Under the pieces are notes generated by a model that searched no databases, was not told the origin of the DNA, and saw only the letters and a list, made by a program, of their open reading frames with translations. This document shows, one piece after another, positions 9,698-51,014 of a stretch of DNA of 64,000 nucleotides. This stretch comes from a virus: the IMG/VR virus record IMGVR_UViG_3300028572_000010, positions 1 through 64,000 of that record, one strand, 5' to 3'. The stretch's first letter is position 1. Each line of letters starts with the position of its first letter. The position numbers were made by a program, and so were the translations under genes.

Positions 9698-10396
9698 TTA
9701 TTCTTCTTCATTACCTATGACTTTATTATACAATTTATCAAATTCTAGTCCAGTATATTGAGATTTATTTTTATTGAATATTTCAGAACCCCAAACTTTC
9801 TCCATCTCACTATCAGATACGCCCATTTCTTTAAGTAATCCATATAGCTTAATTTGAGTAGTTCCAACTTGATAAACGAATAATGCACGGTCAGGGTAAA
9901 AAATTACTTTGCCACCTACTCCAGTTCCAGGTAAGACATTGATGTGGGCTTCAGCTTCTCCAGATTCCTTAGTACGAGTATAGACACCTGGTAGTAAACG
10001 TTGTTGATGTGCAACTGAGTATTCCGCACCATGTAAGATTACTGTATTCCTTTCAGTAAGCCAGGGGATATGAGCGATAGTTGTAGTTTTGGTATCTAAT
10101 ACATTACCAGTTTTCTTATCTATCATCTGAAAAGTACCTCGTAATGGAGTGGACAAATCTCTTTTCTCCATTATAGCCTTATTTTGTTCTTTATAAGTTG
10201 GAGAATGTTCAGGAGCATTATAAGATAAGTCTGTTACTTTTAGTTTGTAGGCTGGACTTTCAATTGTATTAAGCTTCTTCTGAAAAGAATCCAAGGCTTT
10301 AGTATGTAACCATTCCCTAGTCTTCTCTGGATCGAAAAAACCACGCACATTCTTTGGAATAGGCAAACTATATAATGGATCTATATGATTGTTCAC
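9698..10396 (-). CDS. RNA polymerase beta subunit, N-terminal piece
   Basis: 232 residues. Residues 118-140 (TVILHGAEYSVAHQQRLLPG) match the beta protrusion motif of cellular RpoB (INGTERVIVSQLHRSPG), and residues 160-195 (GGKVIFYPDRALFVYQ) fit the following RpoB region. It ends before the part corresponding to the beta lobe, and the C-terminal beta domains are encoded more than 20 kb away at 31806. Split beta genes are known in phiKZ-like jumbo phages. Neighbours are putative virion proteins, consistent with a packaged polymerase. Confidence is high for the family, lower for whether it works as a separate subunit. Confidence 0.85.
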   Translation of the reverse strand: MNNHIDPLYSLPIPKNVRGFFDPEKTREWLHTKALDSFQKKLNTIESPAYKLKVTDLSYNAPEHSPTYKEQNKAIMEKRDLSTPLRGTFQMIDKKTGNVLDTKTTTIAHIPWLTERNTVILHGAEYSVAHQQRLLPGVYTRTKESGEAEAHINVLPGTGVGGKVIFYPDRALFVYQVGTTQIKLYGLLKEMGVSDSEMEKVWGSEIFNKNKSQYTGLEFDKLYNKVIGNEEE

Positions 10397-25733: not shown

Positions 25734-26174
25734 ATGAGAACGAGGCAGGAAATAAAAGAAATATTTGAGGGAAGGGGCTGCACCGTAATAGTGGCTTCTT
25801 GTGAGCGTTGTTGGCCTCAACTGCCGGCAAGCGATGGATCCGGTGAGATATGGATTTTGGCACCAGGCTTGCCAACAAAAGGACCATTTGAAATAACCAA
25901 AGCTCCTTTTGGGGCTTCTGATGCTGCAAATACTAATCATCCTGATACACAGGAAACCTATGATATATGGGTGTTTTCAAAACCTGATGAAACCGGCGAT
26001 GGTTATGTTCCTTGTTCTGAGCAGGAATTTAATGAGGCAGCGGCAGATAAGAAAATGTTGTTTAAATACAACTTTTTACCAACAAGCAGAGGCGTTGGTT
26101 GGTTCTGTAGGGCCTCAGAAAAGAAGCGTCTCCAAGCTGACCTTACTAGTACCTTTAAAGTATTAGGAGTATAA
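25734..26174 (+). CDS. hypothetical protein
   Basis: 146 residues, soluble, with CERCWPQL near the start and several acidic loops (PDETGDGYVPCSEQEF). Last gene of the plus-strand island. Not recognised. Confidence 0.5.
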   Translation: MRTRQEIKEIFEGRGCTVIVASCERCWPQLPASDGSGEIWILAPGLPTKGPFEITKAPFGASDAANTNHPDTQETYDIWVFSKPDETGDGYVPCSEQEFNEAAADKKMLFKYNFLPTSRGVGWFCRASEKKRLQADLTSTFKVLGV

Positions 26175-27585: not shown

Positions 27586-27840
27586 ATGATAAATATTAAT
27601 TCTTATATCGTTACAGAAAATTCAGTGGTTAGTGGAGTTACTTCTGGAGTTGAGGCATTACTTAAAGATGTGAATAACTTTAGCAAACCTGAGGTAGTTA
27701 TAAATACAATCGCTAGTTCGGTAATGGATGAACTATGCAATGTATTTGATTTCGGAGATCAGCCGCTAAGATTCACCCCAGACTTGATGCGGAAAATACT
27801 GCAATTAGCTAAGGAGCAGGAAAAGGAAGAGAAAGCTTAA
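27586..27840 (+). CDS. hypothetical small protein
   Basis: 84 residues, soluble, helical C-terminus (DLMRKILQLAKEQEKEEKA). Its own promoter lies directly upstream. The stop overlaps the stop of the opposing helicase gene by four bases. Function unknown. Confidence 0.5.
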   Translation: MININSYIVTENSVVSGVTSGVEALLKDVNNFSKPEVVINTIASSVMDELCNVFDFGDQPLRFTPDLMRKILQLAKEQEKEEKA

Positions 27841-30692
27841 TTGTAGTTAAGCCAAGATTTAGGTTCTTGATTCTTGGCTATTAAATTAGTTATTTCTTGA
27901 TTAAGATTATCTTTTGGTTTACTGATTGAATTTCTAATATATGAATCTGTACCAGTAGGTTTGGGATTGAATGTAAGTTTATCCAATAAACTAGGTTTTG
28001 GTGTGGCAAAATAACGTTGCACTAAAACCTTTCTCTTTTCTGGAGGCAAACTATCATGACTATGGAAACGTACTGATCTTCCGATAACTTGTCTCTCTTT
28101 AGGAAGGTTCCAAAAAGGTTCCAAAAGTTGTGTCAAATTTGTAGCCTTCAAATCCAATCCTTCAGCCCCAGCTCCTGATACTAATAATGCTCTTAATTTA
28201 TTAGCATTATAATCTTTAACTGCCTGGTCTCTTATAGTAGGTGTTACAGCTCCACTAAACTCTCCAAATGGTATATTATTCTTTCTTAATAATGATTCAT
28301 AAGGTCTAAGACCATTATTAAGATAATTACTATATACTAGAGCTTTATAGTTTGGATCTTGTTTTAATTGTATTTGTAAAAACTTAAAAGCTGCATCTAT
28401 TTTAGGGGATTCCACGTCTCTTAAATTTTTAGTAAATCCAGCAGTTGAATTGCTTACTTGTCTAGGTCCACTTAAAAATGCTCGCATACCTTCTAATTCA
28501 CCACGTCCAGGAGGTAAATTATGTTTAATTCGATAACGTGTCCAAAATGGTGTCTTTCCGAGTATTGTATCATATATCTCTTGTTGTTTAGCACCCATAG
28601 GAACATTAACTTCTTGCTCCGTCACAGTAGGATATCCTTCTTGAGTAGGTTTATAGTAGTCAACATACTTATCCAGAATCTTAGATAGTTGAGCTTTATT
28701 CTGTAGCTTATATTGAATGCCTGGAGAAACTCCCATTAATCTACCAAAAAATCCAGGTTTAACTTCTTCCTGTTTAAAATATTGTTTTTTAAACTCAGAT
28801 AAATTATTAGGTAATACTTGTTTCTTTGCTACTAAGTTAACAAGATTACTTAATTCAGTAGGATCATTTAGAATTGGAGTTCCTGAAAGGAGAAGGCGCT
28901 TGGCTGGATTCGTTTTAACCAATGCTTGATATAATTCACTATTACTATTTTTAGCTTTTTGAGCTTCATCTACTATCTGCAAACCAGTATTGTATATTGG
29001 AGTATTTAACTTAGAATTAGCAAATCTTTGTTGACTAATTAAGTTGATATTAGAAGGATTAGAATTGCCATACCATCTCTGCAACTCTTTACGATAGTTG
29101 GATTTTAATGAAGCTGGAACAATGATATCAGTCTTAGGTAATCCTAATGCTTTCCAGGATTCAATACTTTCGCGTGTATTGTGCGTAACTATACAATGTT
29201 CAGTAATATATAGATGAGAAGGGTCATCGATTGCAATACAGATTGTCTCTTTTTTTCCAACATATTCTATACTTTTTATATATCTAGTTGGTTTATATTT
29301 AGTCTTAGGAATTACTTGAATTGCTTTTCTGTGTAATCTAAATGGATTGATATTTGGTGGTAAACTTAACCAAACCCTATAACATAAAGCTCCTTTCTTT
29401 TTTTCTCCTTTATATGAATATGTTGGAATTCTAGTTGTTATCTTTGCTAAACCTCCTAGTGATTCAACAAGGAATTGCACACCATCTGCTAACTGTTTTG
29501 AGACGGACTCATAAACTATAGCCATACCATCTTTACTTACAGTACCATCAGTATCCATTAACCCTTGTAATAATGCTATGCGAGATTTCACTGTGTTAAA
29601 CATATAAATATCAGGTATAAATTTTGTAAAACAATTCATACCTTGTAATTTTAATTCTTTAAATGCTTGAACAATGTAACTGTTATATCCTTTTGGTTTA
29701 CCTAATCCATAAGTATATTTAGAATATTTTTTAAGAGTAAAATTTGGAAATAAAGACTTAATTGATTGCAGAATTTCGTCATCTGCTGTTGTTATCGCAC
29801 AGCCACCTCCACAAATACTACCATCTCCTAAAATCAAACCAACAAAATACGGGTCTAGTGGAAGTTTTCTATATTTAAAATGAATAGGTTTCACAATAGG
29901 AATAGTATAATTTAAACTATTATCATTAGATAATACTGTATCTTTAATTTCGCTTGTACTCCTGACTTTACCTACCCACCTATATTTAAATTGATCCTTG
30001 CTTTTAACGTAATTTTTACGTTCACATCTAGATTGAGTGAACCATAAATGAGAATCATCACATTCTATAGTAGCACCATCCCTAAAAGTAATTTTATACA
30101 CATCTTTATACCCTTGAGGATAGACTCCAGTCACATTAGCTTTCACACCATTAACAGAAATCACTTCTGTGTTTTGTTTTATATCTTCTATATTTATCCA
30201 CCCTGTAGGTGTTAATATCTTTGAGCCTATAACCAATCCTTTTCCACTACCCATCCCATGATAAAGCACTAACCCTGAAGTATTCTTATCTTGAATCTTC
30301 TTAATTACTCTAGCTTGTTGAGGTTGTAACGCTTCTTCACCAGCCTCCTTCTTCAAAGGTACGGTTCTAGGATTCCCACCTACTACTGGATAACCCTCAG
30401 CCCTTAACTTCTTTGCCAACCATTCCTCGGTTCTTTCAGCTTTATGAAATGGCATGGGATTTAAATCTTTATAATGTTCAGGCCTAAGTCTAAGCCCATG
30501 ATTCTTTACCCAGATATTGGCTTTTAGTCCAGTTTTATGTTTCTCGAATCTAGCTTCAGGACTCAAACCAGTCTCTCCTACATAAAGTGGAGGTAGTTCT
30601 GGATTGTAGTTAGGATTCAACTTTAAAAACTTTTTTTTAGCTAAGACCTCCTTATCCAATTCAACTACATATACATTGTGTCGGTCTGTCAT
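27837..30692 (-). CDS. GIY-YIG / SNF2-like helicase with intein
   Basis: 951 residues from ATG at 30692, just after the upstream stop; earlier in-frame Mets lie in that gene. Residues 1-110 have NVYVVELD ... PLYVGETGLSPEARFEKH, a GIY-YIG nuclease-type domain. A superfamily 2 helicase follows: Walker A GMGSGK-T, interrupted after Lys151 by an intein (residues 152-505); motif II DEAQ near 575; LLSGTPILND motif III; SGAGAEGLDL motif V; QVIGRSVRFH motif VI. SNF2-like ATPases act with viral RNA polymerases in poxviruses; a similar transcription or DNA-remodelling role is inferred. Whether the nuclease domain is active cannot be seen. Confidence 0.85.
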   Translation of the reverse strand: MTDRHNVYVVELDKEVLAKKKFLKLNPNYNPELPPLYVGETGLSPEARFEKHKTGLKANIWVKNHGLRLRPEHYKDLNPMPFHKAERTEEWLAKKLRAEGYPVVGGNPRTVPLKKEAGEEALQPQQARVIKKIQDKNTSGLVLYHGMGSGKGLVIGSKILTPTGWINIEDIKQNTEVISVNGVKANVTGVYPQGYKDVYKITFRDGATIECDDSHLWFTQSRCERKNYVKSKDQFKYRWVGKVRSTSEIKDTVLSNDNSLNYTIPIVKPIHFKYRKLPLDPYFVGLILGDGSICGGGCAITTADDEILQSIKSLFPNFTLKKYSKYTYGLGKPKGYNSYIVQAFKELKLQGMNCFTKFIPDIYMFNTVKSRIALLQGLMDTDGTVSKDGMAIVYESVSKQLADGVQFLVESLGGLAKITTRIPTYSYKGEKKKGALCYRVWLSLPPNINPFRLHRKAIQVIPKTKYKPTRYIKSIEYVGKKETICIAIDDPSHLYITEHCIVTHNTRESIESWKALGLPKTDIIVPASLKSNYRKELQRWYGNSNPSNINLISQQRFANSKLNTPIYNTGLQIVDEAQKAKNSNSELYQALVKTNPAKRLLLSGTPILNDPTELSNLVNLVAKKQVLPNNLSEFKKQYFKQEEVKPGFFGRLMGVSPGIQYKLQNKAQLSKILDKYVDYYKPTQEGYPTVTEQEVNVPMGAKQQEIYDTILGKTPFWTRYRIKHNLPPGRGELEGMRAFLSGPRQVSNSTAGFTKNLRDVESPKIDAAFKFLQIQLKQDPNYKALVYSNYLNNGLRPYESLLRKNNIPFGEFSGAVTPTIRDQAVKDYNANKLRALLVSGAGAEGLDLKATNLTQLLEPFWNLPKERQVIGRSVRFHSHDSLPPEKRKVLVQRYFATPKPSLLDKLTFNPKPTGTDSYIRNSISKPKDNLNQEITNLIAKNQEPKSWLNYN
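29178..30239 (-). other. class 3-like intein in helicase Walker A
   Basis: 354 codons. It starts with Gly (GLVIGSKILTPTGW), not Cys or Ser, and ends CIVTHN followed by Thr. Three features fit class 3 inteins: Trp in block B (SHLWFTQS), Cys in block F (ETICIAID) and Thr at +1. Removing it restores GMGSGKTRES. It carries LAGLIDADG motifs GLILGDGS and GLMDTDGT, so it can home. Confidence 0.85.
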
Positions 30693-30693
30693 A

Positions 30694-31371
30694 TCAGTAA
30701 TTATAGTAAGTCCCTTTATCCACCCAATTAGTACCACCTTGTAGATTATATTGATGAGGCAAGCTTGTAGTTATTGGATCATTAGGATTCCTATCTTTAA
30801 TAATTCTATTTATTATATTCACTACGTCTGGGTATTCATTAGTCTTAAATTGACTTGGAATTAATGGACCATAATGCCTGGGAGGGATTTGAACAACGTT
30901 AGTAAGATTAGGGAATAATTTACGGTACATAGCTGGAGTAGCAAACCCTTTAAGCACTTCGTTTGGACTCACATTAGTATTGGAGCAATCCCCACCATTA
31001 CAAGCAGTAGTATAAATATTATTGATATTGTTAGTAGCTGGACCAATAAGTTTAGCCAATGTTTGAGGAGTATAAGTTAGTGGTTCATTGTTATAAAGCA
31101 AGTTTTTAGAATTATTAGAATCACTTTGAAATGCATATTCTCCATTAATAGCACTATCAGGACCACCGTGAGCATTTATATTAAGGGTATTACCACCTTT
31201 ATTAACAAAATTATGCATATTTGGAGGGAGACCACCAACAGTATAAGCATTGTGTGGTAATGAAATCATCGGAATTTTTGGAGGTGTAGGAGGTGTAGGA
31301 GGTGGAGGAGGTGGAGGGAGTGGGCCAGCAGCCTTGATAAAACCATTAATAAATGCATCTAACTTATTCAT
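30694..31371 (-). CDS. tagged caspase-like (clan CD) putative protease
   Basis: 225 residues. N-terminal tag DAFINGFIKAAG, then a run of prolines, then a folded domain. Residues about 67-80 read NINAHGGPDS and about 120-128 IYTTACNGG; this His-Gly ... Ala-Cys-x-Gly pair is the catalytic layout of clan CD peptidases (caspase, CHAT, C80). A Lys/Leu-rich helix (YTPQTLAKLI) lies between, as in C80 proteins. It may be packaged with the DNA and act on host proteins or other virion proteins; that part is inference. Overlaps the secreted-protein gene by eight bases. Confidence 0.45.
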   Translation of the reverse strand: MNKLDAFINGFIKAAGPLPPPPPPPTPPTPPKIPMISLPHNAYTVGGLPPNMHNFVNKGGNTLNINAHGGPDSAINGEYAFQSDSNNSKNLLYNNEPLTYTPQTLAKLIGPATNNINNIYTTACNGGDCSNTNVSPNEVLKGFATPAMYRKLFPNLTNVVQIPPRHYGPLIPSQFKTNEYPDVVNIINRIIKDRNPNDPITTSLPHQYNLQGGTNWVDKGTYYNY

Positions 31372-31714: not shown

Positions 31715-31769
31715 AAATCTAACCTAGTTTAATGTATATTCCAGGTTAATTAAAGACTAAAGTTTGAGG

Positions 31770-31799
31770 TTGTGGAAATCAATAATAAGAGTATATAAT
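31770..31799 (+). promoter_or_regulatory. leaderless-type promoter of the RNA polymerase gene
   Basis: TATAAT (31794-31799) followed by exactly 6 bases and ATG at 31806. The -35 (TTGTGG, 18-base spacing) is weak. Confidence 0.5.
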
Positions 31800-31805
31800 C
31801 AAAAT

Positions 31806-34559
31806 ATGAGTTATACTGTACTTAATAAGGGAAATTTTGAGAAGGTGGACAAACTAAATGAAGATCATATATCCATGCCTTCGAGTAGGGATTTATTTGC
31901 TTTACCTACTAACATGATTACTGGGCTAAATTCAGTTTCCGGCGGGCGTGTGTTACTAGGAGCCAAGGCTTCTCTCCAAGCTATACCTTTAGTAAATCCT
32001 GAACGTCCGTTAGTAGAAAGTTCAGATGACACTAACAAAGAAAGTACTCAAGAACTATATGGTAAACATTATTTATCTGTAACTGCAACTAAACCTGGTA
32101 CTGTTACTGAAGTTACTGAAAATCATATTAAAGTAGATAATACAGATAAAACCAAGTCTACCTATCAACTATATAATAACTTTCATTTAGGCAGGAAAAG
32201 CTTTATTACTCATACCCCTAAAGTGAAGGTTGGTGATAAAGTTAAAACTAATGAAGTAATAGCTTACAGTAATTATAATGATAAAGAAGGTAATATGGCG
32301 ATGGGAACTAACCTTACTACTGCTATAATCCCGTACCGCTCAGACAACTTTGAGGATGCTTTTGCAGTGACTGAAAGTGGTGCTAAAAAGTTGGCAGCAG
32401 AACAAATGATCAATTTTAGTATTGAAGAGAAATTTGGAGTAGAGGCAGGCAAGGATAAATTTGTAGCACTATTTCCTAATAAATATACGAATAATCAAAT
32501 TAAAAATATAGATTCAGATGGAGTGGTTATAGTAGGGTCTAGATTGAAAGCTGGAGACCCGGTAATCCTGGCTTACTCACCCAGAGCATTAAAGAGTACA
32601 GATTTGGCATTAGGTAAGCTGAGTAAAGTATTAAAACATGCATTCAAAGATAATTCAGAAGCCTGGGACTACGAACATGATGGAGAAGTAGTGGATGTAA
32701 CCAAACATGGCCCACTTATTACAGTACATATCAAGACGGTAAGAAGTCTATTACCTGGTGATAAGATTTCTAATTACTTTGGAGCTAAGGGTGTAACGAA
32801 GATTGTATCAGACTCACAAGCTCCACTACTACCTAATGGGAAGCCAGTTGATATCATGCTTAACTCCATGTCCATCACGTCAAGAGTTGCACCAGCCTTA
32901 GCCATAACTCTAGGCCTTGGTAAATTAGCTGAGAAGACTGGTAAGACTATTAAAATGGATCAGTTTAGAAAGGATTCATCTATTAAGAATGTAATTAATG
33001 TATTAAAGAAGAATAATATAAATGATACTGAACAACTATATGATCCAATTACTGGTAGAAATATTGAAGCAGTTGTAGGTCCATTATTCTATAGTAGGTT
33101 AACTCATATTAGTGAAGATAAACTAAGTACTAGAAGTCAGGGGTCCGGATACAGTTTCGACCGGCAACCAAGTAAGTCAGCAGTGGAAGGTGGTTCATCA
33201 AAGAGAATAGGAAATTTAGGTACTACAGCTTTGCTAAGTCATGATGTCAGACATGTATTGGAGGATATAGGTACTGTTAAAGGTACTCAGAATGATGAAT
33301 TCTGGCGTGCTATTAAATTGGGCCAAACCCCACCCAGCCCTAAAGTTCCATTCATCTTTAACAAGTTCATAGATAGTTTAAAAGCTGCCGGTATTAATGT
33401 AGATAGAGTTGGTAATACCTTTAATATCCTACCTTTAACAGATAAGGATACTACTGCTTTGAGTAATGGTGAAATTAAGAAACCTTCATTATTCAAGCCA
33501 CATCAAGAAGAACTAATACATGAACCTGGCGGACTATTTGATCCTAATATAATAGGCATATTAGGTGACAAGTTTAATCACATAAATCTTAATCATCCCA
33601 TACCTAATCCTATTAGTGAGGATTATCTCAGAAAGTTGTTAGGAGTTACCAAGTTTAAGTTTAATGATATGGTAGTGGATGGGGAAATGGAAAAAGCCCT
33701 TAATAATATAGATCTGGATAAGAAGATAGAAGAAATGAAGAAGTATATAGGTAGTGAGAAGAAGACTAGAAGAGATGATGCCGTTAAATTGTTAGAATTT
33801 CTCACTACACTAAAAGAACATAAGTTACATCCTAAAGATTTGATGTTGCATAAAGTACCTATTCTACCAGCCCAATACAGACCTGCTAGTAAGATGGGTG
33901 ATGTAGTATTAACTAGTGATGTTAATAATCTATATAAAGACCTCATACTAAATAACAATGCACTTAAAAATACTGAGAATGTGCCGGACGAAGTAGTTAG
34001 GAAATTAAAACAAAATGAATATGATGGAGTAAAAGCTGCCTTTGGTTTGGGTGATCCAATTAATAAGAAACACCAGGATAAGAATGTTAAAGGTATATTA
34101 GCTACTATGTTTGGATTAAAGGGTGGAACGGCTAAAAGTACAATGTTTCAGAGTAAGGTGGTTAATAAGAGTCTGGATTTGGTGGGAAGAGCTGTGTTAA
34201 CTCCAGATACTAGATTGGATGTAGACCAGGCTAGTGTACCTCAAGATATGCTGTGGCAGATATATAAACCTTTTGTTATTAGAAGGTTGGTTATGAAGGG
34301 TGTACCAGCTATTAGTGCGGTTGATTATGTTAAAAAACATAGTCCATTAGCAGTTATGGCATTAAAGGAAGAGATGGCAGTAAGACCTGGTATTATAACG
34401 CGAGATCCAGCCTGGCATAAATATAATCTATTAGGGTTTAATTTAATTGCTAATCCAAATTCTAAAGATAAAACTATTAAAATGAATCCATTAGTATTTA
34501 AGGGGTATGGTGCGGATAGTATTGTAGATTATATTATTTATAGAGAGAAAATTAATTGA
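31806..34559 (+). CDS. RNA polymerase beta C-part fused to beta' N-part, ending in N-intein
   Basis: 917 residues from ATG at 31806. Residues about 28-570 match the C-terminal half of RpoB: GGRVLLGAKASLQAIPLV, NFEDAFAVTES, GDKISNYFGAKGV (from 318), VDIMLNSMSITSRV and the C-terminal clamp helix region. From about 575 the sequence is beta' N-part: GGLFDPNIIG, the switch/rudder region, LWQIYKPFVIRRLV and MNPLVFKGYGAD. Asp904 is the first Asp of the catalytic NADFDGD motif. The following 13 codons (34518-34556) are intein sequence and end at TGA. Beta-beta' fusions exist in some bacteria. The beta lobe is absent. Confidence 0.9.
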   Translation: MSYTVLNKGNFEKVDKLNEDHISMPSSRDLFALPTNMITGLNSVSGGRVLLGAKASLQAIPLVNPERPLVESSDDTNKESTQELYGKHYLSVTATKPGTVTEVTENHIKVDNTDKTKSTYQLYNNFHLGRKSFITHTPKVKVGDKVKTNEVIAYSNYNDKEGNMAMGTNLTTAIIPYRSDNFEDAFAVTESGAKKLAAEQMINFSIEEKFGVEAGKDKFVALFPNKYTNNQIKNIDSDGVVIVGSRLKAGDPVILAYSPRALKSTDLALGKLSKVLKHAFKDNSEAWDYEHDGEVVDVTKHGPLITVHIKTVRSLLPGDKISNYFGAKGVTKIVSDSQAPLLPNGKPVDIMLNSMSITSRVAPALAITLGLGKLAEKTGKTIKMDQFRKDSSIKNVINVLKKNNINDTEQLYDPITGRNIEAVVGPLFYSRLTHISEDKLSTRSQGSGYSFDRQPSKSAVEGGSSKRIGNLGTTALLSHDVRHVLEDIGTVKGTQNDEFWRAIKLGQTPPSPKVPFIFNKFIDSLKAAGINVDRVGNTFNILPLTDKDTTALSNGEIKKPSLFKPHQEELIHEPGGLFDPNIIGILGDKFNHINLNHPIPNPISEDYLRKLLGVTKFKFNDMVVDGEMEKALNNIDLDKKIEEMKKYIGSEKKTRRDDAVKLLEFLTTLKEHKLHPKDLMLHKVPILPAQYRPASKMGDVVLTSDVNNLYKDLILNNNALKNTENVPDEVVRKLKQNEYDGVKAAFGLGDPINKKHQDKNVKGILATMFGLKGGTAKSTMFQSKVVNKSLDLVGRAVLTPDTRLDVDQASVPQDMLWQIYKPFVIRRLVMKGVPAISAVDYVKKHSPLAVMALKEEMAVRPGIITRDPAWHKYNLLGFNLIANPNSKDKTIKMNPLVFKGYGADSIVDYIIYREKIN
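34518..34556 (+). other. N-terminal intein fragment, 13 residues
   Basis: SIVDYIIYREKIN directly follows the catalytic-motif residues GYGAD. Its Ser1 is the expected splicing nucleophile. If the 43 bases from 34558 to 34600 are removed, the frame runs on as INYKYTLVPISDF, which then looks like the start of a normal Ser1 intein of the archaeal polymerase type. Confidence 0.75.
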
Positions 34560-34584
34560 CAAGTTCAACTAGTCACCGTATTGT
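34556..34584 (+). promoter_or_regulatory. leaderless-type promoter inside the split intein
   Basis: TTGACA (34556-34561), 17-base spacer, TATTGT (34579-34584), then exactly 6 bases to ATG at 34591. TTGACA overlaps the TGA stop of the upstream gene. Geometry is identical to the homing endonuclease promoter at 8719. Confidence 0.65.
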
Positions 34585-34590
34585 GTCTAT

Positions 34591-36039
34591 ATGATTAATT
34601 ATAAATATACACTAGTACCTATTTCAGATTTCCCTAGAATAGAAAATTCAGCCACTACTACTATAAATGGTAATATCCTTTATGATGTACCTAGTAATGT
34701 AGAAGTAAAATCATTAAACCTTATAACTGGTGAAGTAGATTGGGTAAATCCAAAGACATTCTCGATTCATCCTAATGTACCTTTATATTTGGTACAATTT
34801 ATAGATGGGGATTTTATATTTGCAGCCAAAGATCATAGTTTATTAGCTTATACTGATAGTGGTATTGAAGAAGTTGATACCGAAGAGGCAGTAGGTAGGT
34901 ATTGTCCTAGTGATGTTACAACTATAGCACCCAATATTCAATCAAGTGTATTAGCTGAAGGTATGATGGGTACTAGAGGAATGAAAGGAATACGAGGAAA
35001 AGGATTTGTTAAAAATTCATTTAACTTGCAACTTAATTATAAAACCGGACTTTTTATAGGAATGGTTTTAGGTGATGGTTGGGTAGATAATGCTAATCAA
35101 CTTTTCTTAGCCGGTTCTACCAAAGAAAAATTAATGAATAGAAAAGTATTTGCTGATTTATGTAATAGTGAATATCTTCCTTATGAAAATGGAGTTAAAG
35201 AAATAGATAGAGTTAGTGAGAATATGATGGGGCAATTTACTTCTAGAGGTAAAACTAGAGCTTCTTGTGCCTGGTTTAATAAGTGGTTAAAAGAGCAGAT
35301 AGGGAGTGGAGCTTTTAATAAGAAAATACCTACTTTTAGTTTAAACGGTCCTGAAGAACATCTACTAGGTATATTAGATGGGTTAATCTCAACTGATGGA
35401 ACAGTAAGTGTCAGTTCTTCTAATAAAACAGTTATAAATATAAGTATCTGCACATCATCAATTCATTTAATTAACGGTTTAAGATATATGAGTAAACGGT
35501 TAAATTTAAATTATGGAGTATATAAAGGGGCATCTAGGCTGAGTAGTAAAGATAATTTCTCCTTCAGATTTCATACTGGGACATTTAAAAAGTTAGTTGA
35601 AAGAACAAAATTTAGAATAAGTCATGAGTTGAAGAAGGAAAAATTAGAGAATAGCTTAAAAGATATAACAGGTATAGGTGATAACTTTAATGACTTAGTA
35701 CCACTTCCTTCAGAAACTGTTAAAAAAAATATAATTACAGCTATTAATAATAAATATAAATTACAAAAGAATAAGGAACTTTATAATTTAAAATATAGAT
35801 TAAGCCAGGAATTTAAAACAGATAGATTTCGTAAAAGCACTTTAAAAGAAATAATTGAAATACTTCTAGTTGAGTTAAAGAATAATGAACAATGGATATC
35901 ATATTTAGGTAAGGTGTATAATGGTAGTTTAAAATGGAAGAAAGTTAAAAGAGTAACTAAGTTACAATCTAATACTGCTTACGATTTGGAAATACCAAAC
36001 TACGGAAGTTTCTTAACTATAGGAGGATATACAAAAAAT
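34591..36039 (+). other. C-terminal intein fragment with LAGLIDADG domain
   Basis: 483 codons ending Lys-Asn before Ser at +1 (36040). The penultimate residue is Lys rather than the usual His. The two LAGLIDADG helices carry Asp residues (LGDGW, STDGT), so the endonuclease could be active. Confidence 0.8.
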
Positions 36040-36312
36040 TCCGACGGAGACCAACTTAATGTCCATATTCCAGGCACTGAAGAAGCACGTAAAGAAGTTA
36101 TAGCTAAAATGATGCCTAGCAAAAATTTATTATCTGTTAAATCTTTTCAACCTGTATTAATCCCTAGTAATGAAGCAGCTTTGGGCCTTTATGGACTAAG
36201 TACAGAAAACAAACATAACACTCCTAAAAAATATAAAACTGAACAAGAAGTAGTTGCTGCATATAACAGAGGTGATTTAGAGCCAGGAGACAACATAGAA
36301 ATAGAGAAATGA
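34591..36312 (+). CDS. C-intein with homing endonuclease plus beta' active-site C-extein
   Basis: 573 residues. Residues 1-483 are the large C-part of an intein: a block B-like DFIFAAKDHSLLA, LAGLIDADG motifs GLFIGMVLGDGW and LLGILDGLISTDGT, and a C-terminal end YDLEIPNYGSFLTI...YTKN. The last 90 residues begin SDGDQLNVHIPGTEEA and match RpoC just after NADF, including the second and third catalytic Asp, then SNEAALGLYGLS. Joined to the upstream product this gives GYGAD-SDGDQ. Expression is from its own promoter or by coupled events (see findings). The protein needs splicing to give any active polymerase. Confidence 0.85.
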   Translation: MINYKYTLVPISDFPRIENSATTTINGNILYDVPSNVEVKSLNLITGEVDWVNPKTFSIHPNVPLYLVQFIDGDFIFAAKDHSLLAYTDSGIEEVDTEEAVGRYCPSDVTTIAPNIQSSVLAEGMMGTRGMKGIRGKGFVKNSFNLQLNYKTGLFIGMVLGDGWVDNANQLFLAGSTKEKLMNRKVFADLCNSEYLPYENGVKEIDRVSENMMGQFTSRGKTRASCAWFNKWLKEQIGSGAFNKKIPTFSLNGPEEHLLGILDGLISTDGTVSVSSSNKTVINISICTSSIHLINGLRYMSKRLNLNYGVYKGASRLSSKDNFSFRFHTGTFKKLVERTKFRISHELKKEKLENSLKDITGIGDNFNDLVPLPSETVKKNIITAINNKYKLQKNKELYNLKYRLSQEFKTDRFRKSTLKEIIEILLVELKNNEQWISYLGKVYNGSLKWKKVKRVTKLQSNTAYDLEIPNYGSFLTIGGYTKNSDGDQLNVHIPGTEEARKEVIAKMMPSKNLLSVKSFQPVLIPSNEAALGLYGLSTENKHNTPKKYKTEQEVVAAYNRGDLEPGDNIEIEK

Positions 36313-36613: not shown

Positions 36614-37267
36614 ATGACTTACAGACAAATCTTAGAAGAAATAGGTAGTATGATGCATAAACAAGCATTTATACCATCACCTAATAGTACTGCTGCTCAA
36701 CAACAAGGAGGTTTACCTGGGCAACAACCTCAACCTCCACAATCTTCACAATCTCCACAACCAAGTCAAGGTGGATCAGGTCAACAACCAGACCCACAAC
36801 AGATGGCTCAATTAGCTCAACAAATGGGTCAAGGCCAAGGAATGCAACAAGAAGGCCAGGGTCAACCTCAGCAAGATCTGAGTCAGGGAGGTCAGCCACA
36901 ACCAGGACAAAGTGATGATTTAGCCCCAAAACAACAGTCTAGAGGGTTAAAAGATACTACAGTTACATTAAGTGTAGCTGATCTATTAGATTTACATAGT
37001 GGCGGGAAGGCAACACAGAGTCATTTGAAGACTGAACAATTAAAAGAAAAGCATCAATATGAACGTGCTAAGATGCATAGGGAAGAGCAACAGAAGCAGA
37101 GAGAAGAACAGCAGAAGCAACAACAAGAACAAATGATGCAACAACAGCAACAACAAGGTATGATGGGTGGAGGTATTTATGGTAGTGGGCCGATGGATGG
37201 TAGTAATCCTGCACAACCAACCCAACCAGCACAATCAGCCCAACCCCAACAAGGTCTAGGTATATGA
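36614..37267 (+). CDS. Gln/Pro-rich putative virion protein
   Basis: 217 residues. N-terminal helix MTYRQILEEIGSMMHKQAF, then long Gln/Pro/Gly-rich disordered stretches around a short conserved-looking block (DTTVTLSVADLLDLHSGGKA). A charged coiled-coil with many Gln follows. Overlaps the next gene by four bases. Function unknown. Confidence 0.5.
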   Translation: MTYRQILEEIGSMMHKQAFIPSPNSTAAQQQGGLPGQQPQPPQSSQSPQPSQGGSGQQPDPQQMAQLAQQMGQGQGMQQEGQGQPQQDLSQGGQPQPGQSDDLAPKQQSRGLKDTTVTLSVADLLDLHSGGKATQSHLKTEQLKEKHQYERAKMHREEQQKQREEQQKQQQEQMMQQQQQQGMMGGGIYGSGPMDGSNPAQPTQPAQSAQPQQGLGI

Positions 37268-37965
37268 ATCTAAATAACGCATTTATTAACGGATTTATTA
37301 AAGCTTCTGCAAATCCTATTAAGTCATTTGAAGAATTGGCTAATGTACTTAAACCTGAAGTTACTGGTGCTACTGAGGCTACTGGTGCTTCTATACCAGA
37401 GGCAGCTGTTTCTAATTTAGCTATACCTAAAGCTCCTTCTAGTTCTGACTTTCCATCTAGTAAACTTAATCTAGGTTCTATAAGTAATAAGATTAAATTA
37501 GATGGCTTTGGAGGAAATCAACTTAAATTAAATAGTAAACCAGAACCAGCTAATATTGATGCCAAATCCGTATTGAGTAAACTATTCAAAAGTAAATCAG
37601 TTGGTGACATGGGACTAGGTACTGCTGCCGGACTTGGAGTAGGTGGAGGCATAGGTGCTCATTATGCTGGTCAAGGATTAGGTAATGTATTTAATAATGT
37701 AAATGCTAATACTACTATTAAACCTAGTATACATGGAGCTATAACTGGAGCAGAACAAGCTTTACATAAGAATGATATTTCTCCCCAATCTTTATTTGAA
37801 GTATTATCCAATCATATTAGTAACAACAAAGTTCCTTATGAATTAGGTTTGGGCGCTGCAGGTTTAGGTGGTTTAGGGGCTTATCTATATAGCAAGCATA
37901 GAAAATCAGAAGATAGTGAATATGATAATGGTGAAGATGAACCAGGCGGAAATCCAGAAATCTAA
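37264..37965 (+). CDS. tagged glycine-zipper putative internal virion protein
   Basis: 233 residues. Tag NNAFINGFIKASAN at the N-terminus. Gly-rich hydrophobic segments at about 118-140 (GLGTAAGLGVGGGIGAHYAG) and 195-210 (LGLGAAGLGGLGAYLYS), the second followed by Lys/Arg and an acidic tail. Expected to insert in a membrane; role in genome ejection is inferred. Confidence 0.55.
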   Translation: MNLNNAFINGFIKASANPIKSFEELANVLKPEVTGATEATGASIPEAAVSNLAIPKAPSSSDFPSSKLNLGSISNKIKLDGFGGNQLKLNSKPEPANIDAKSVLSKLFKSKSVGDMGLGTAAGLGVGGGIGAHYAGQGLGNVFNNVNANTTIKPSIHGAITGAEQALHKNDISPQSLFEVLSNHISNNKVPYELGLGAAGLGGLGAYLYSKHRKSEDSEYDNGEDEPGGNPEI

Positions 37966-38641: not shown

Positions 38642-40981
38642 ATGTCTGAGGTAACAACAGTAGGCAAAATCCTGCTTAAGCATTACTCTCCTGCTAACTC
38701 TCATTCATTTATAGAAAGCAAAGATTTGGATAAGAAGAATATAGGTGCTTTCTTCTCTAATTTAGCAGAGCATAATGAAGATAGTTATAAGAAAGTAGTA
38801 TCAGATTTAACTAGACTTGGGTTTGAATCAGCTACTAGGTTGGGTAGTACTGTCAGACTAGGTGACTTGCTTCCACCCTCCTTTAAAGATGAGAGATTTA
38901 AAGAACTCAATAAAGAGATTAAGAGCATAAAGGATAAAAAGTTACCTAAAAAGAAAGAAGATGATGAACTAACAAATTTGCTCAACAAGTTTTCTGACAC
39001 TGCAAATAAGGAAATAATAGAAGAAGGCCTTAAAGATAATAAGACTCTAGCCAAGGTAGTTAAAGCCGGAGCGAGAGGGAGTCCCGAACAATATCGTCAA
39101 ACTATTTTCTCCCCAGTAGCCGTTAACGATAATAAAGGCGGTATTCTAACTGATTTTATTATTGATAGATCTTTTGCTGAAGGATTAACCTTGCCCCAAT
39201 ATTTGGCACATACTTTTGGTGCGAGACAAGCCAGCGCGGCCACAAAATTATCAGTGGCAGAAGGTGGGTTTTTAGGCAAGCAATTAGCTAGAGCAAACAT
39301 GACAATGGTGATAGAAGAACATGATTGTGGTACTCATAATGGAATACCTGTAAAAACAAATGATAATGATTACATCGGTTCGTTCTTAGCTCATCCTATA
39401 GACAAATATCACTATAATAATGAAGTTACCTCTAGTATGCTGGGTATTCTAAAAAGCAAAGGCATAGAAGAGATTGTAGTTAGAAATCCTATAACTTGTG
39501 AAGCTAGTCATGATGGAACTTCTAGTGCTCTTTGTCAATTATGTGTGGGTATCAGAGGTAAAGGCTTGTCTGAACTTAATTCTTTTATTGGAGTTGTTGC
39601 CGGTACTTCAGCAGCAGAACCAGTAGCACAAGGGGCGTTAAACTGTTTAGCTGAAGGAACACTAGTAAGAATGGCAGATTATTCTATTAAAGCTATTCAA
39701 GATATAAAGGTCGGAGATATGGTGCTTGGCTCTGATAACGCTGGTCAAACCTCTCCAGTCAAAGTTCTAAGGTTATTCAATCAAGGATTACAACCTGTTA
39801 ATAAATATATATTTATAGATAATAAAGATAAAGTAATTGAACTATATGCTACAGAGAATCATAAGATACTTTGTGAAACCCTGGAATGTAGTAATGTATT
39901 AACAGAAATGCCTCTAAAAGATATTGATGAAACTATAGATGTAGTTACTACAAATGATTATTGGGTAGTACTATACAATAAACCAGAGTATCTAGGATTA
40001 ATACAATGTTGGGATATTGAAGTAGATAGTAAAGATGCTTTATTTGTATTAGCGAATGGCTTAATAGTACATAATAGTAAGCACAAGGGAGGTAGTGCAA
40101 CTGGTTCTAATCAATTTGGTGGCTTTAAATACATCAATCAATTATTTAATATCCCGGATTCATTTGTCCATGAAGCCCCAATAGCTGACTCTGATGGTAA
40201 GATAGAAGAAGTAAGAGTAGCACCACAAGGAGGTCATTATATAGTTATTAAGCATGATAATGGAAAACTTGAAGAATATTATGTACACCCAGATTTGAAA
40301 GTATTGGTTAAATCAGGCCAGCTAGTTGAAGAAGGTGATGTGTTAAGTGATGGTATACCTAATCCAGCTAAAATAACAAAGCATAAAGGTATTGGAGAAG
40401 GTAGAAGGTATTTCTCCAAAGCTATTAAAGATACATTTGAAACTAGTCAATTAGGTGGAATAAATAAACGTAATTTTGATATTATAAGTAAAGGTTTAAT
40501 TACTCATGTTAAAATAACCAATCCTAAAGGCTTAGGGAATAACTTGCCAGACAGTATAGTAAATTATCATACACTGGAGAAAGCCTATTCTCCTAGAACT
40601 AATAGTAAGAAGGTCAGAACTGATATGGCTCAAGGTTTATACTTGGAAATACCTGAATTACACTATACAATAGGAACTAGAATCACCAGTACTGTAATTA
40701 ATGAGTTGAAGAAACATAATATCGATTATGTTACGGTAAATGAGACAAAACCTGAATTTGAACCAGAAATGCAAAGATTATTAGATGTCCCAGCACATGA
40801 ACATGACTGGATGCATACCTTATATAGTACTAATCTGGAACGTAGATTAATAAAGGCTGTCAATACTGGAGCTTCTAGTAGTTTGGAGGGACCATCTCCA
40901 ATACCAGGGCTTGCATATGCCAAAGGATTTGGGACCCATAAATTTGCAGAAGAACTGGAAGAGCAGTTATCATTTGAGTAA
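38642..40981 (+). CDS. RNA polymerase beta' C-terminal piece with mini-intein
   Basis: 779 residues, 635 after splicing. N-terminal TTVGKILLKH resembles the RpoC segment that follows the active site. EEHDCGTHNG (from 225) matches the RpoC region before the trigger loop. CQLCVGIRGKGLSELNSFIG and VAGTSAAEPVAQGALN match the CYGRDLA ... AAQSIGEPGTQL block. An intein follows at residues 335-478, then SKHKGGSATGSNQF (trigger loop). The rest fits the beta' jaw and C-terminus. Together with 31806 and 34591 it makes an almost complete beta'. Confidence 0.9.
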   Translation: MSEVTTVGKILLKHYSPANSHSFIESKDLDKKNIGAFFSNLAEHNEDSYKKVVSDLTRLGFESATRLGSTVRLGDLLPPSFKDERFKELNKEIKSIKDKKLPKKKEDDELTNLLNKFSDTANKEIIEEGLKDNKTLAKVVKAGARGSPEQYRQTIFSPVAVNDNKGGILTDFIIDRSFAEGLTLPQYLAHTFGARQASAATKLSVAEGGFLGKQLARANMTMVIEEHDCGTHNGIPVKTNDNDYIGSFLAHPIDKYHYNNEVTSSMLGILKSKGIEEIVVRNPITCEASHDGTSSALCQLCVGIRGKGLSELNSFIGVVAGTSAAEPVAQGALNCLAEGTLVRMADYSIKAIQDIKVGDMVLGSDNAGQTSPVKVLRLFNQGLQPVNKYIFIDNKDKVIELYATENHKILCETLECSNVLTEMPLKDIDETIDVVTTNDYWVVLYNKPEYLGLIQCWDIEVDSKDALFVLANGLIVHNSKHKGGSATGSNQFGGFKYINQLFNIPDSFVHEAPIADSDGKIEEVRVAPQGGHYIVIKHDNGKLEEYYVHPDLKVLVKSGQLVEEGDVLSDGIPNPAKITKHKGIGEGRRYFSKAIKDTFETSQLGGINKRNFDIISKGLITHVKITNPKGLGNNLPDSIVNYHTLEKAYSPRTNSKKVRTDMAQGLYLEIPELHYTIGTRITSTVINELKKHNIDYVTVNETKPEFEPEMQRLLDVPAHEHDWMHTLYSTNLERRLIKAVNTGASSSLEGPSPIPGLAYAKGFGTHKFAEELEEQLSFE
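39644..40075 (+). other. mini-intein in beta' trigger-loop region
   Basis: 144 codons. Starts CLAEGTLVRMADYSIKAIQD, has block B ATENHKIL, and ends LIVHN with Ser at +1, all canonical for class 1. No LAGLIDADG motif or other endonuclease insert, so it cannot home by itself. Confidence 0.9.
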
Positions 40982-48455: not shown

Positions 48456-51014
48456 ATGATTCTTAAATTTACTGGTAATAATGACTTTGATTTTGATTGT
48501 GAAAGTGTGGTGCTTTTAAAAGACTCAGGCAAAGAGTTAAAGAAGAGGGCTTCTGCTAAATCATTATTGAAGTACGAAAAGACTCCAAATCAAGAGGATT
48601 TGCATATAATTGCTGTAGGATCATATGAAGGTACAGGATGTTTCTTTAAAGGAGCACCAGTACAAACTATCAATGGTATAAAACCTATAGAAGATATAAA
48701 AGTTGGAGATTTAGTACTTACACATAAAGGCAGATATAGAAAAGTGCTAAAAACCTACGAAAATGATTTTAGTGGAGTTAAAGTATCATTAGATATTGTT
48801 AGTCTGTGTGATAGAATAGAATGCACTGATAATCATCCTATACAAGTAATTAAAGCTGTAGATTTTAGAACTAAACATCGCTGTCCTTCATTATTAGATG
48901 ATGGTGTGAATCCCAAAGATGTATTGGATGATATTATAAGCAAAGCCCCCTATATTCCAGCTAGTGAGATTAAACCTGGAGATTATGTATTAACTCCTAT
49001 TAATATAGATAATGAAGATAAAAAAGAAGTATTTTCTGAAGATGATGCTTATTTGTTTGGTTATTACTTAGCTGAAGGATGTTTGGCGAAAGAATATAGA
49101 GAAGATAGAAGTCATTGTGGTGAGTATACAAAAATCCTGTTTACTATGGCGGTTGGGGATCAGCCTTGTATTGATAAGATCCAATCTATTATAAAGAAAC
49201 TGAATGGGGCCGAAACTAGTATTCAAAAATCATTTACTAGTGAATATGGCAGAAGATTTTCGTTCCAAAATTATGAAAAAGCCCAACAATGCCTAAAACT
49301 ATTTGGTTGTCATTCCACTATAAAATTCTTATCACCTATAATATTCCAGCAATCTATTGAGTGGAAACTTAAGTTCTTAGCTGCTTATTTTGATGGTGAT
49401 GGACATGTTATAGGACCTGATTCAAATGGAGCAGCCAGATATATAGGTTCAATGTCAGCCTCCACAGCTTCTAGAAATCTAGCTTATGATTTACATCGGT
49501 TATTGGCTTCTTGTGGTATAACTTCGAATGTTTATAAAGGAATGAATAAACACTCTAATGGATGCTTTGGAAAAACTGACCATGTTATTTATACTGTAGG
49601 GGTTGGGAGTTGTCATTCGAATAAAATACTACAATATACTCTTCGACTAGCTCCATCAAGTAAACAACCAAAATATCTTGCAGGTAGATCTTGGATTAGT
49701 AGTAATCATTTAGTATTACAAGTTGGACTGGTTGAACTATCTGAAATAGAAGATACAATAAAGTATAATCTAGAAGTTGAAGAAGATAATACATATGTAG
49801 TGGACATCCAAGTACATAATAGCAATCGCAACGGCGATTGCTTTTTAGAGAAGGATTGTATCAAAAATCATCATTATTTCTCTGATAGTAAAAGAGCTGT
49901 GCATAGGCATCATCAAAATAAACCAAATGATCCTAAGTATGGAACTATAAAAGCTTCAGCTTATAATGACAAGATGCGTAGAATAGAATTAGTAGTAGGA
50001 TTGGATAGAGATAAATGTGCAGATATTCTAGATGAGCAAGAACGAACAGGTAATACGAATTGGAGTATGGCTGCAAAAATGGCCTCTGACCTATGCTCTT
50101 GGTGTGGTCATAGAGCTAAAACAGAGAATGATAGATGTGATTGCGTTAAGAATCATTTAGGAGAAATTAATAAAGAGGGTGAAATGTGCCGAATGATTAA
50201 TACTCCGGACCCTAGATGGTTTGAGATTAGTTATGTACGTAGACCTGCTGACAGGATTGGTATGAGCTTATCCAAACTAGCGTCAGATTTAACTTATAAA
50301 CCACTTCCTCCCTCTCACTTCCTTAATCTATACAGTGATATTTATATACCTGATGAATTAATGATTAGTAAGAAAGCTTCGGATAAAAGGGAATTACTAA
50401 CGAAATTAGCAGAATTAGAAAAGTATGTGGATGCTGTAACTAAAGGTAATCCAGTTACTAGTAAGGATAAGTTTATTAAGGAACATGGACATAAACTTAA
50501 GCATACTCCTAATATAGATAGTAATAGCATAGATTCATTACGTAAACTAGATCCAGGTACTGTATTGAAGACATTGGCAGATCATGGAATAGTTTTAAAG
50601 CCTGAGGATTTTAGTAGATATGTGTTTGATGATAAGGTTAAGCCTGAGCGAGTAGAAGGAATGAAGACACATTTACCTCATATCTATAATAAGCTGGATA
50701 ATGATAAGGCTGTAAACTCTGAAACATTTGATCCTAGCCTGCATACTCATACTCCTCATGATTTGGATAAGACGGTTAAAGGTTTGGAGGAAGGGCATAG
50801 TTTGAAAGAAGGTCCAGTAGTTAGAAGACTAATGATTGTAATTTGTGGTAGTGGGAATATTAAGAGAGAAGAACAAGAACCTACTAAAGAAGCATGTGAC
50901 CTGGAATTTGCAAAGAAGTATGCGGAGTATCAGCTAGCTAGTTTAAACTACATTAATGAACAAGGTAAGCTAACTGATGATATTCTACTTAATACTATTT
51001 TAATGAATCAGTAA
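48456..51014 (+). CDS. putative prohead maturation protease with intein
   Basis: 852 residues, 458 after intein removal. Exteins join as GSYEGTG-SNRNGDCF. The blocks KNHHYFSDSKRAVHRHHQNK, RRIELVVGLDRDK, CSWCGHRAKTENDRCDCVKN and WFEISYVRRPADR match the family of phage head maturation proteases (YEGTGxNRNGD; FFDISxVxxPAD), in which the His and Ser form the active site. Such proteases cut scaffold and N-terminal targeting peptides during head maturation. Position ahead of scaffold and capsid genes fits. The acidic and helical C-terminus (from about residue 640) may be a scaffold-type extension. Confidence 0.7.
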   Translation: MILKFTGNNDFDFDCESVVLLKDSGKELKKRASAKSLLKYEKTPNQEDLHIIAVGSYEGTGCFFKGAPVQTINGIKPIEDIKVGDLVLTHKGRYRKVLKTYENDFSGVKVSLDIVSLCDRIECTDNHPIQVIKAVDFRTKHRCPSLLDDGVNPKDVLDDIISKAPYIPASEIKPGDYVLTPINIDNEDKKEVFSEDDAYLFGYYLAEGCLAKEYREDRSHCGEYTKILFTMAVGDQPCIDKIQSIIKKLNGAETSIQKSFTSEYGRRFSFQNYEKAQQCLKLFGCHSTIKFLSPIIFQQSIEWKLKFLAAYFDGDGHVIGPDSNGAARYIGSMSASTASRNLAYDLHRLLASCGITSNVYKGMNKHSNGCFGKTDHVIYTVGVGSCHSNKILQYTLRLAPSSKQPKYLAGRSWISSNHLVLQVGLVELSEIEDTIKYNLEVEEDNTYVVDIQVHNSNRNGDCFLEKDCIKNHHYFSDSKRAVHRHHQNKPNDPKYGTIKASAYNDKMRRIELVVGLDRDKCADILDEQERTGNTNWSMAAKMASDLCSWCGHRAKTENDRCDCVKNHLGEINKEGEMCRMINTPDPRWFEISYVRRPADRIGMSLSKLASDLTYKPLPPSHFLNLYSDIYIPDELMISKKASDKRELLTKLAELEKYVDAVTKGNPVTSKDKFIKEHGHKLKHTPNIDSNSIDSLRKLDPGTVLKTLADHGIVLKPEDFSRYVFDDKVKPERVEGMKTHLPHIYNKLDNDKAVNSETFDPSLHTHTPHDLDKTVKGLEEGHSLKEGPVVRRLMIVICGSGNIKREEQEPTKEACDLEFAKKYAEYQLASLNYINEQGKLTDDILLNTILMNQ
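48639..49820 (+). other. full-length LAGLIDADG intein in prohead protease
   Basis: 394 codons. Starts CFFKGAPVQTINGIKPIEDI, block B CTDNHPIQ, LAGLIDADG motifs LFGYYLAEGCL and LAAYFDGDGHV, and ends DIQVHN with Ser at +1. A complete class 1 intein. Confidence 0.92.

Follow-up and report, generated by a model that had tools for sequence, protein, structure and literature searches.

An intein divided between two genes

The DNA analysed here, called the window, consists of the 64,000 nucleotides (nt) at positions 1-64,000 of IMG/VR record IMGVR_UViG_3300028572_000010, which belongs to a bacterial virus. In this window, the catalytic motif of the beta' subunit of an RNA polymerase appears to be interrupted by an intein whose two parts are encoded by consecutive open reading frames, ORF1 and ORF2 (Table 1). 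ORF1 ends with the polymerase residues VFKGYGAD, followed by SIVDYIIYREKIN and by the stop codon TGA at 34557-34559. The first codon of ORF2, an ATG at 34591, lies 31 nt past this stop; its protein begins with MINYKYTLVP, the frame is open across 573 codons, and the passage from intein to polymerase reads SFLTIGGYTKN, then SDGDQLNVH. This is the gene layout of a split intein: the genes are separate, the N-terminal part of the intein (IntN) stands behind the N-extein, the C-terminal part (IntC) stands ahead of the C-extein, and the exteins together make up beta'. An earlier note, written from the sequence alone, had described the end of ORF1 (GYGAD, 13 residues, TGA) and the 31-base distance to the next gene, which prove exact to the base; it had also seen an intein C-part with LAGLIDADG motifs in the downstream gene, and Pfam agrees, with matches to PF14528 and to Intein_splicing (2.7e-6). 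The Pfam domain RNA_pol_Rpb1_2 is divided between ORF1 and ORF2. Translation of ORF1 more likely starts at the ATG at 31806, as in the relative L015, than at 31764.

Table 1. Features of the split beta' locus and other parts of the same polymerase (aa, amino acids)
Feature	Positions	Strand	Remarks
ORF1: beta C-part fused to beta' N-part, putative IntN at its end	31764..34559	+	Pfam Rpb2_6 (4.8e-45), Rpb1_1, Rpb1_2; 78% identical to L015
GYGAD, end of N-extein	34503..34517	+	Its Asp, at -1, is the first catalytic one; aligns with the uninterrupted GFGADNDGD of L015 and GFGADFDGD of L016
Putative IntN, SIVDYIIYREKIN	34518..34556	+	13 aa, Ser1; assigned by position and length relative to contiguous homologs
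43-bp inserted segment between two copies of ATTAATT	34551..34600	+	Carries stop TGA (34557-34559) and start ATG (34591); no counterpart in contiguous homologs
ORF2: IntC and 90-aa C-extein	34591..36312	+	Start context ranks above each of 1,032 internal ATGs
IntC	34591..36039	+	483 aa; NX-like His (FSIHPN), N3 AKDH, C2 YDLEIP, terminal Lys-Asn; full-length alignment with the L059 intein
LAGLIDADG_3 homing endonuclease domain (second motif region) in IntC	35362..35538	+	Pfam PF14528, 8.4e-8
C-extein, SDGDQLNVH...	36040..36309	+	Holds Ser+1 and the remaining two catalytic Asp; homologs in L015 and Arash have the same end point
beta' C-part of the same polymerase	38642..40981	+	rpoC TIGR02386, 8.6e-55; contains a second, contiguous intein
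Portion of the beta N-part, same polymerase	9704..10276	-	Matches the beta of phage Arash (E 1.6e-19)

The domains Rpb1_1, Rpb1_2 and Rpb1_5 of the window's polymerase are distributed across three open reading frames, and the three-Asp catalytic loop of beta' is whole only in the joined product, GADSDGD. The intein itself contains a LAGLIDADG domain, which makes it a maxi-intein, and the acidic residues are retained in both motifs, LGDGW and STDGT. IntC also matches PRK14898, the NCBIfam model of archaeal RpoA'', at 1.1e-14. The nucleophiles are those of a class 1 intein: Ser1 at 34518 and Ser+1 at 36040. In block B (N3), AKDH retains the His and has Ala in place of Thr, where homologs mostly have SRDH. 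At the C-terminal end, the C2 Asp and the terminal Asn are retained, and the penultimate His is replaced by Lys; in the inteins of phages L059 and L064, the last two positions hold Phe/Tyr and Asp. The NX-type His (FSIH) does not vary across the alignment; unlike in the published motif, no Arg or Lys precedes it.

Relatives with an empty site and with a contiguous intein

Because intein-free relatives read through the site, the borders of the intein are exact: it follows the first catalytic Asp. In L015, the loop is found in one gene as GFGAD-N-DGDQLNIH, and the gene ends where ORF2 ends; L016 and L044-L049 have AD-F-DGD with no interruption; the fusion of beta and beta' is also found in Salmonella phage Arash and Vibrio phage D69, where the beta N-part stands ahead of it and the sequence is uninterrupted through AADYDGD. 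In relatives, the insertion site is followed by Phe, Tyr, Asn or Ile, and in the window by Ser, as the +1 position requires. The Asn of L015, which has no intein, shows that a non-aromatic residue occurs at the Phe position in this clade. Two motifs without an intein have the usual Phe or Tyr replaced: GADNDGD at L015:9700-9720 (Asn) and NGDIDGD at L057:3748 (Ile).

Six more distant phages have a contiguous homologous intein in the same catalytic loop of beta': L056 and L059, found by searching with L015, L016 and the window, and L064, L069, L070 and L071, found by further searches. In contrast to the intein of the window, the six inteins are unsplit and lie four residues downstream (NADYDGD, then S or C); some have Ser1 and some Cys1, and those whose end is visible finish with Asp followed by Thr+1, whereas the window has Ser1, a terminal Asn and Ser+1. 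L064 first seemed to be split, since its match began at residue 16, but the gene is in fact contiguous. In its N3 motif, the His is replaced by Ala (SRDASMF).

The L059 intein (492 aa) and the joined intein of the window (493 aa) align end to end with 25% identity, including a common part past the endonuclease. A profile of the N-terminal 110 residues of the homologs matches the window with an E-value of 7.5e-8, starting at profile position 9; aligned in this way, ORF2 lacks just the first strand, the one that carries the nucleophile. Ser1 and the conserved HI block, which reads PI in the window, are 20 residues apart in the joined intein, and 18 or 22 in the homologs. By alignment, the break falls in a length-variable beta-hairpin turn, directly after the second strand, which is where a split of type S1 is expected. 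The identification of IntN rests on its position (right behind the junction, with Ser first and a fitting length) more than on its sequence. A search of PDB sequences gave nothing useful for the joined intein, and only a weak match to the TFIIB intein for a trimmed query.

The 43-bp segment and the start of ORF2

Two copies of ATTAATT, at 34551-34557 and 34594-34600, stand 43 base pairs (bp) apart. Omitting these 43 bp yields a single open frame of 1501 aa, just as the earlier note had anticipated when it claimed that their removal fuses the two frames. The same note had placed a stop, a promoter and a new start in the segment: the stop is there, and so is a start codon in a strong context, but the promoter is unsupported. 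The candidate, TTGACA-N17-TATTGT at 34556-34584, is a 10/12 match, and was rejected as a sigma-70 promoter because promoter-like matches are not above chance, with 39 found versus 55.8 expected. A search for another copy of the segment, as a source of the 43 bp, found none.

The question whether ORF2 is started INDEPENDENTLY was addressed with a weight matrix built from 57 accepted starts of the window. With a context of -18..+9, none of the 1,032 internal coding-strand ATGs reaches the score of the ATG of ORF2, which also exceeds 91% of the real starts; other context lengths yield 0.2-4%. An earlier matrix, with a looser background, placed it above 99.4% of other ATGs, two in-frame ATGs of the intein being slightly higher. 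Such a context favours a genuine start, and is not expected of a bypass gap or of a random insertion; separate translation of ORF2 is thus well supported. Window starts have few Shine-Dalgarno sequences, and are A/T-rich upstream, often ending in -TATG or -AATG; the missing Shine-Dalgarno sequence was considered as an argument against ORF2 and dropped, since few genes of the window have one. These sparse Shine-Dalgarno sequences and A/T-rich starts might fit a putative Bacteroidota-like host.

A probable split trans-splicing intein and its alternatives

That the beta' motif is split by an intein, and that the break arose through a small insertion into a contiguous intein, as the earlier note had proposed, is well supported: the empty site of L015, the six contiguous inteins, the S1-type break and the start context of ORF2 all point this way. 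We consider it likely that the element is a naturally split, atypical S1, class-1-like Ser1/Ser+1 trans-splicing maxi-intein, with an IntN of 13 aa, in the catalytic motif of beta'. The intein lies directly behind the first catalytic Asp of the motif, which is NAD^FDGD in general and GAD^SDGD in the window. The split would have originated through a 43-bp segment, carrying a stop and a new start, that came to interrupt a contiguous LAGLIDADG intein at a beta-hairpin turn. The polymerase half with the 13-aa IntN at its end, and the half opening with the 483-aa IntC, would be translated separately; IntN would give the Hint fold the first strand that IntC is missing, and the halves would trans-splice to GADSDGD, completing the three-Asp centre. 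We infer in this way the association of the halves, their splicing, the active enzyme and the order of the evolutionary events. The earlier note went further, with an intein that controls the assembly of the active site: this is unsupported, a bare possibility.

Several observations weigh against a functional split intein, and some of them would be expected if a recent 43-bp insertion had inactivated an intein, contiguous until then, in a single clone that is spreading; the polymerase would then be dead or dispensable, and the start of ORF2 incidental. All carriers of the insert form one near-clonal population, so that selection on the split is not measurable; no diverged split relative was found in the IMG/VR, GTDB genomes and phage records searched; and the residues of IntN match weakly, contributing 3 bits, a value that random or shuffled Ser-first 13-mers equal in 4-7% of trials (p 0.04-0.07). 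The AlphaFold models of IntC and of the L059 intein have a confidence too low for use (predicted local distance difference test, pLDDT, of 49 and 41). The Thr to Ala change in N3 and the penultimate His to Lys change depart from the canon, although contiguous homologs deviate at the same positions, and such residues need not signal decay. However, the insert is present in several assemblies, the frame of ORF2 is open throughout and its start context is strong, the break falls at a known tolerated split position (PMC13014065), and all three catalytic Asp are retained. We regard inactivation as the main rival, but an unlikely one.

The other explanations are much less probable. The least probable is an assembly artefact, suggested by the short direct repeats on both sides of the segment: a 7-bp repeat should be far under usual assembly word lengths, and the 43 bp are the same, base for base, in the IMG/VR contigs 3300029918_000010, 3300037278_000574 and 3300030508_000015, which have other metagenome identifiers and differ from the window by 0-1 single-nucleotide polymorphism in the stretches compared (at 26069 and 46837). 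A second, uninterrupted copy of beta', which the earlier note would have taken as a refutation, was found neither in the 127-kb record of the window nor in a 151-kb record, neither of which is known to be complete. The note's own alternative, ribosome bypassing in the manner of T4 gene 60, would have ribosomes leave AAT at 34554-34556, hop 43 nt and land on AAT at 34597-34599, with cis splicing afterwards, hence two layers of removal. As in gene 60, the same codon is found on both sides of the gap, and its first copy is immediately followed by a stop (TGA); the length of the gap is also close to 50 nt. But the AAT codons are identical as a consequence of the 7-bp repeat, and bypassing would have no need of the good start codon that the gap contains. 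Moreover, gene 60 requires both a take-off stem-loop and a signal from the nascent peptide for its bypassing (PMC11194080), whereas the RNA here folds no better than shuffled controls (z -0.2 to -0.7), with no significant take-off stem-loop. This alternative is weakened to the point of being very doubtful. We are equally sceptical of an absence of ligation, in which IntC would cleave itself off or remain, and the polymerase would function from unligated pieces. There are precedents for both parts, since the polymerases of jumbo phages function from several split subunits (PMC7598289) and PolB16 shows C-cleavage (PMC10189870), but the break in the window is within the catalytic loop itself, where 13 extra residues would be left, and the known subunit splits are elsewhere (PMC7598289).

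Comparison with known split inteins

Natural atypical splits fall directly after beta2 (S1: VidaL, PolB16) or past the first helix (S2: AceL, GOS TerL) (PMC13014065), and their short N-parts range over 15-37 aa (PMC13014065, PMC10189870), rather than the 16-25 residues given in the earlier note. PolB16 OarG shares with the window an S1 split, Ser1/Ser+1, Asp at -1 and a very short IntN, which at 15 aa is "the shortest characterized to date" (PMC10189870). It differs by its host, a DNA polymerase, by its IntC of 168 aa, and by its proven splicing (PMC10189870); in the window, an IntN of 13 aa is found in RNA polymerase beta', IntC has 483 aa with a LAGLIDADG domain, and splicing is predicted. 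VidaL is also a natural S1 split with a short IntN, but it is cysteine-dependent and its fast splicing is proven (PMC13014065). In the polymerases of jumbo phages, beta and beta' are spread over several genes, as in the window, but the splits are between domains and ligation is not needed (PMC7598289). The literature searched, where subscription journals are mostly missing, yielded no description of a beta' with a split intein.

Other inteins and neighbouring genes

The beta' C-part at 38642-40981 contains the second intein of the window (CLAEGT...IVHN, then S), without an endonuclease match; its site is empty in L015 (LNSKHSGG). A gene for an SNF2-type helicase at 27837-30737 (-) has a contiguous LAGLIDADG intein (PF14528, 4.7e-13), and a fourth intein, of the Hint/LAGLIDADG kind (Hint_2 1.3e-6, PF14528 8.2e-14), is found in the gene of a probable head maturation protease at 48456-51014. 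The record of L015 has no match at all to LAGLIDADG_3. Several unrelated-looking proteins, among them those of 30694-31371 (-) and 37264-37965 (+), share a similar short N-terminal motif (AFINGFIKA), and proteins of L015 have like N-termini (AFLTGMIKAA, YIDGFVKAA); these may form a common sorting or packaging signal.

Significance

If confirmed, the IntN of 13 aa would be shorter than the 15 aa of the shortest one characterised in the literature searched, and this cysteine-free N-part could serve in protein labelling. The window would hold a maxi-intein that apparently became split only a short time ago, when 43 bp with a stop and a start were inserted at a hairpin turn, and contiguous homologs in the same motif make the question of how an intein becomes split directly testable. 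If splicing does take place, the most conserved loop of the polymerase exists only once two proteins are ligated, and polymerases of this kind would escape a survey that requires the gene to have its NADxDGD motif intact (PMC7481178).
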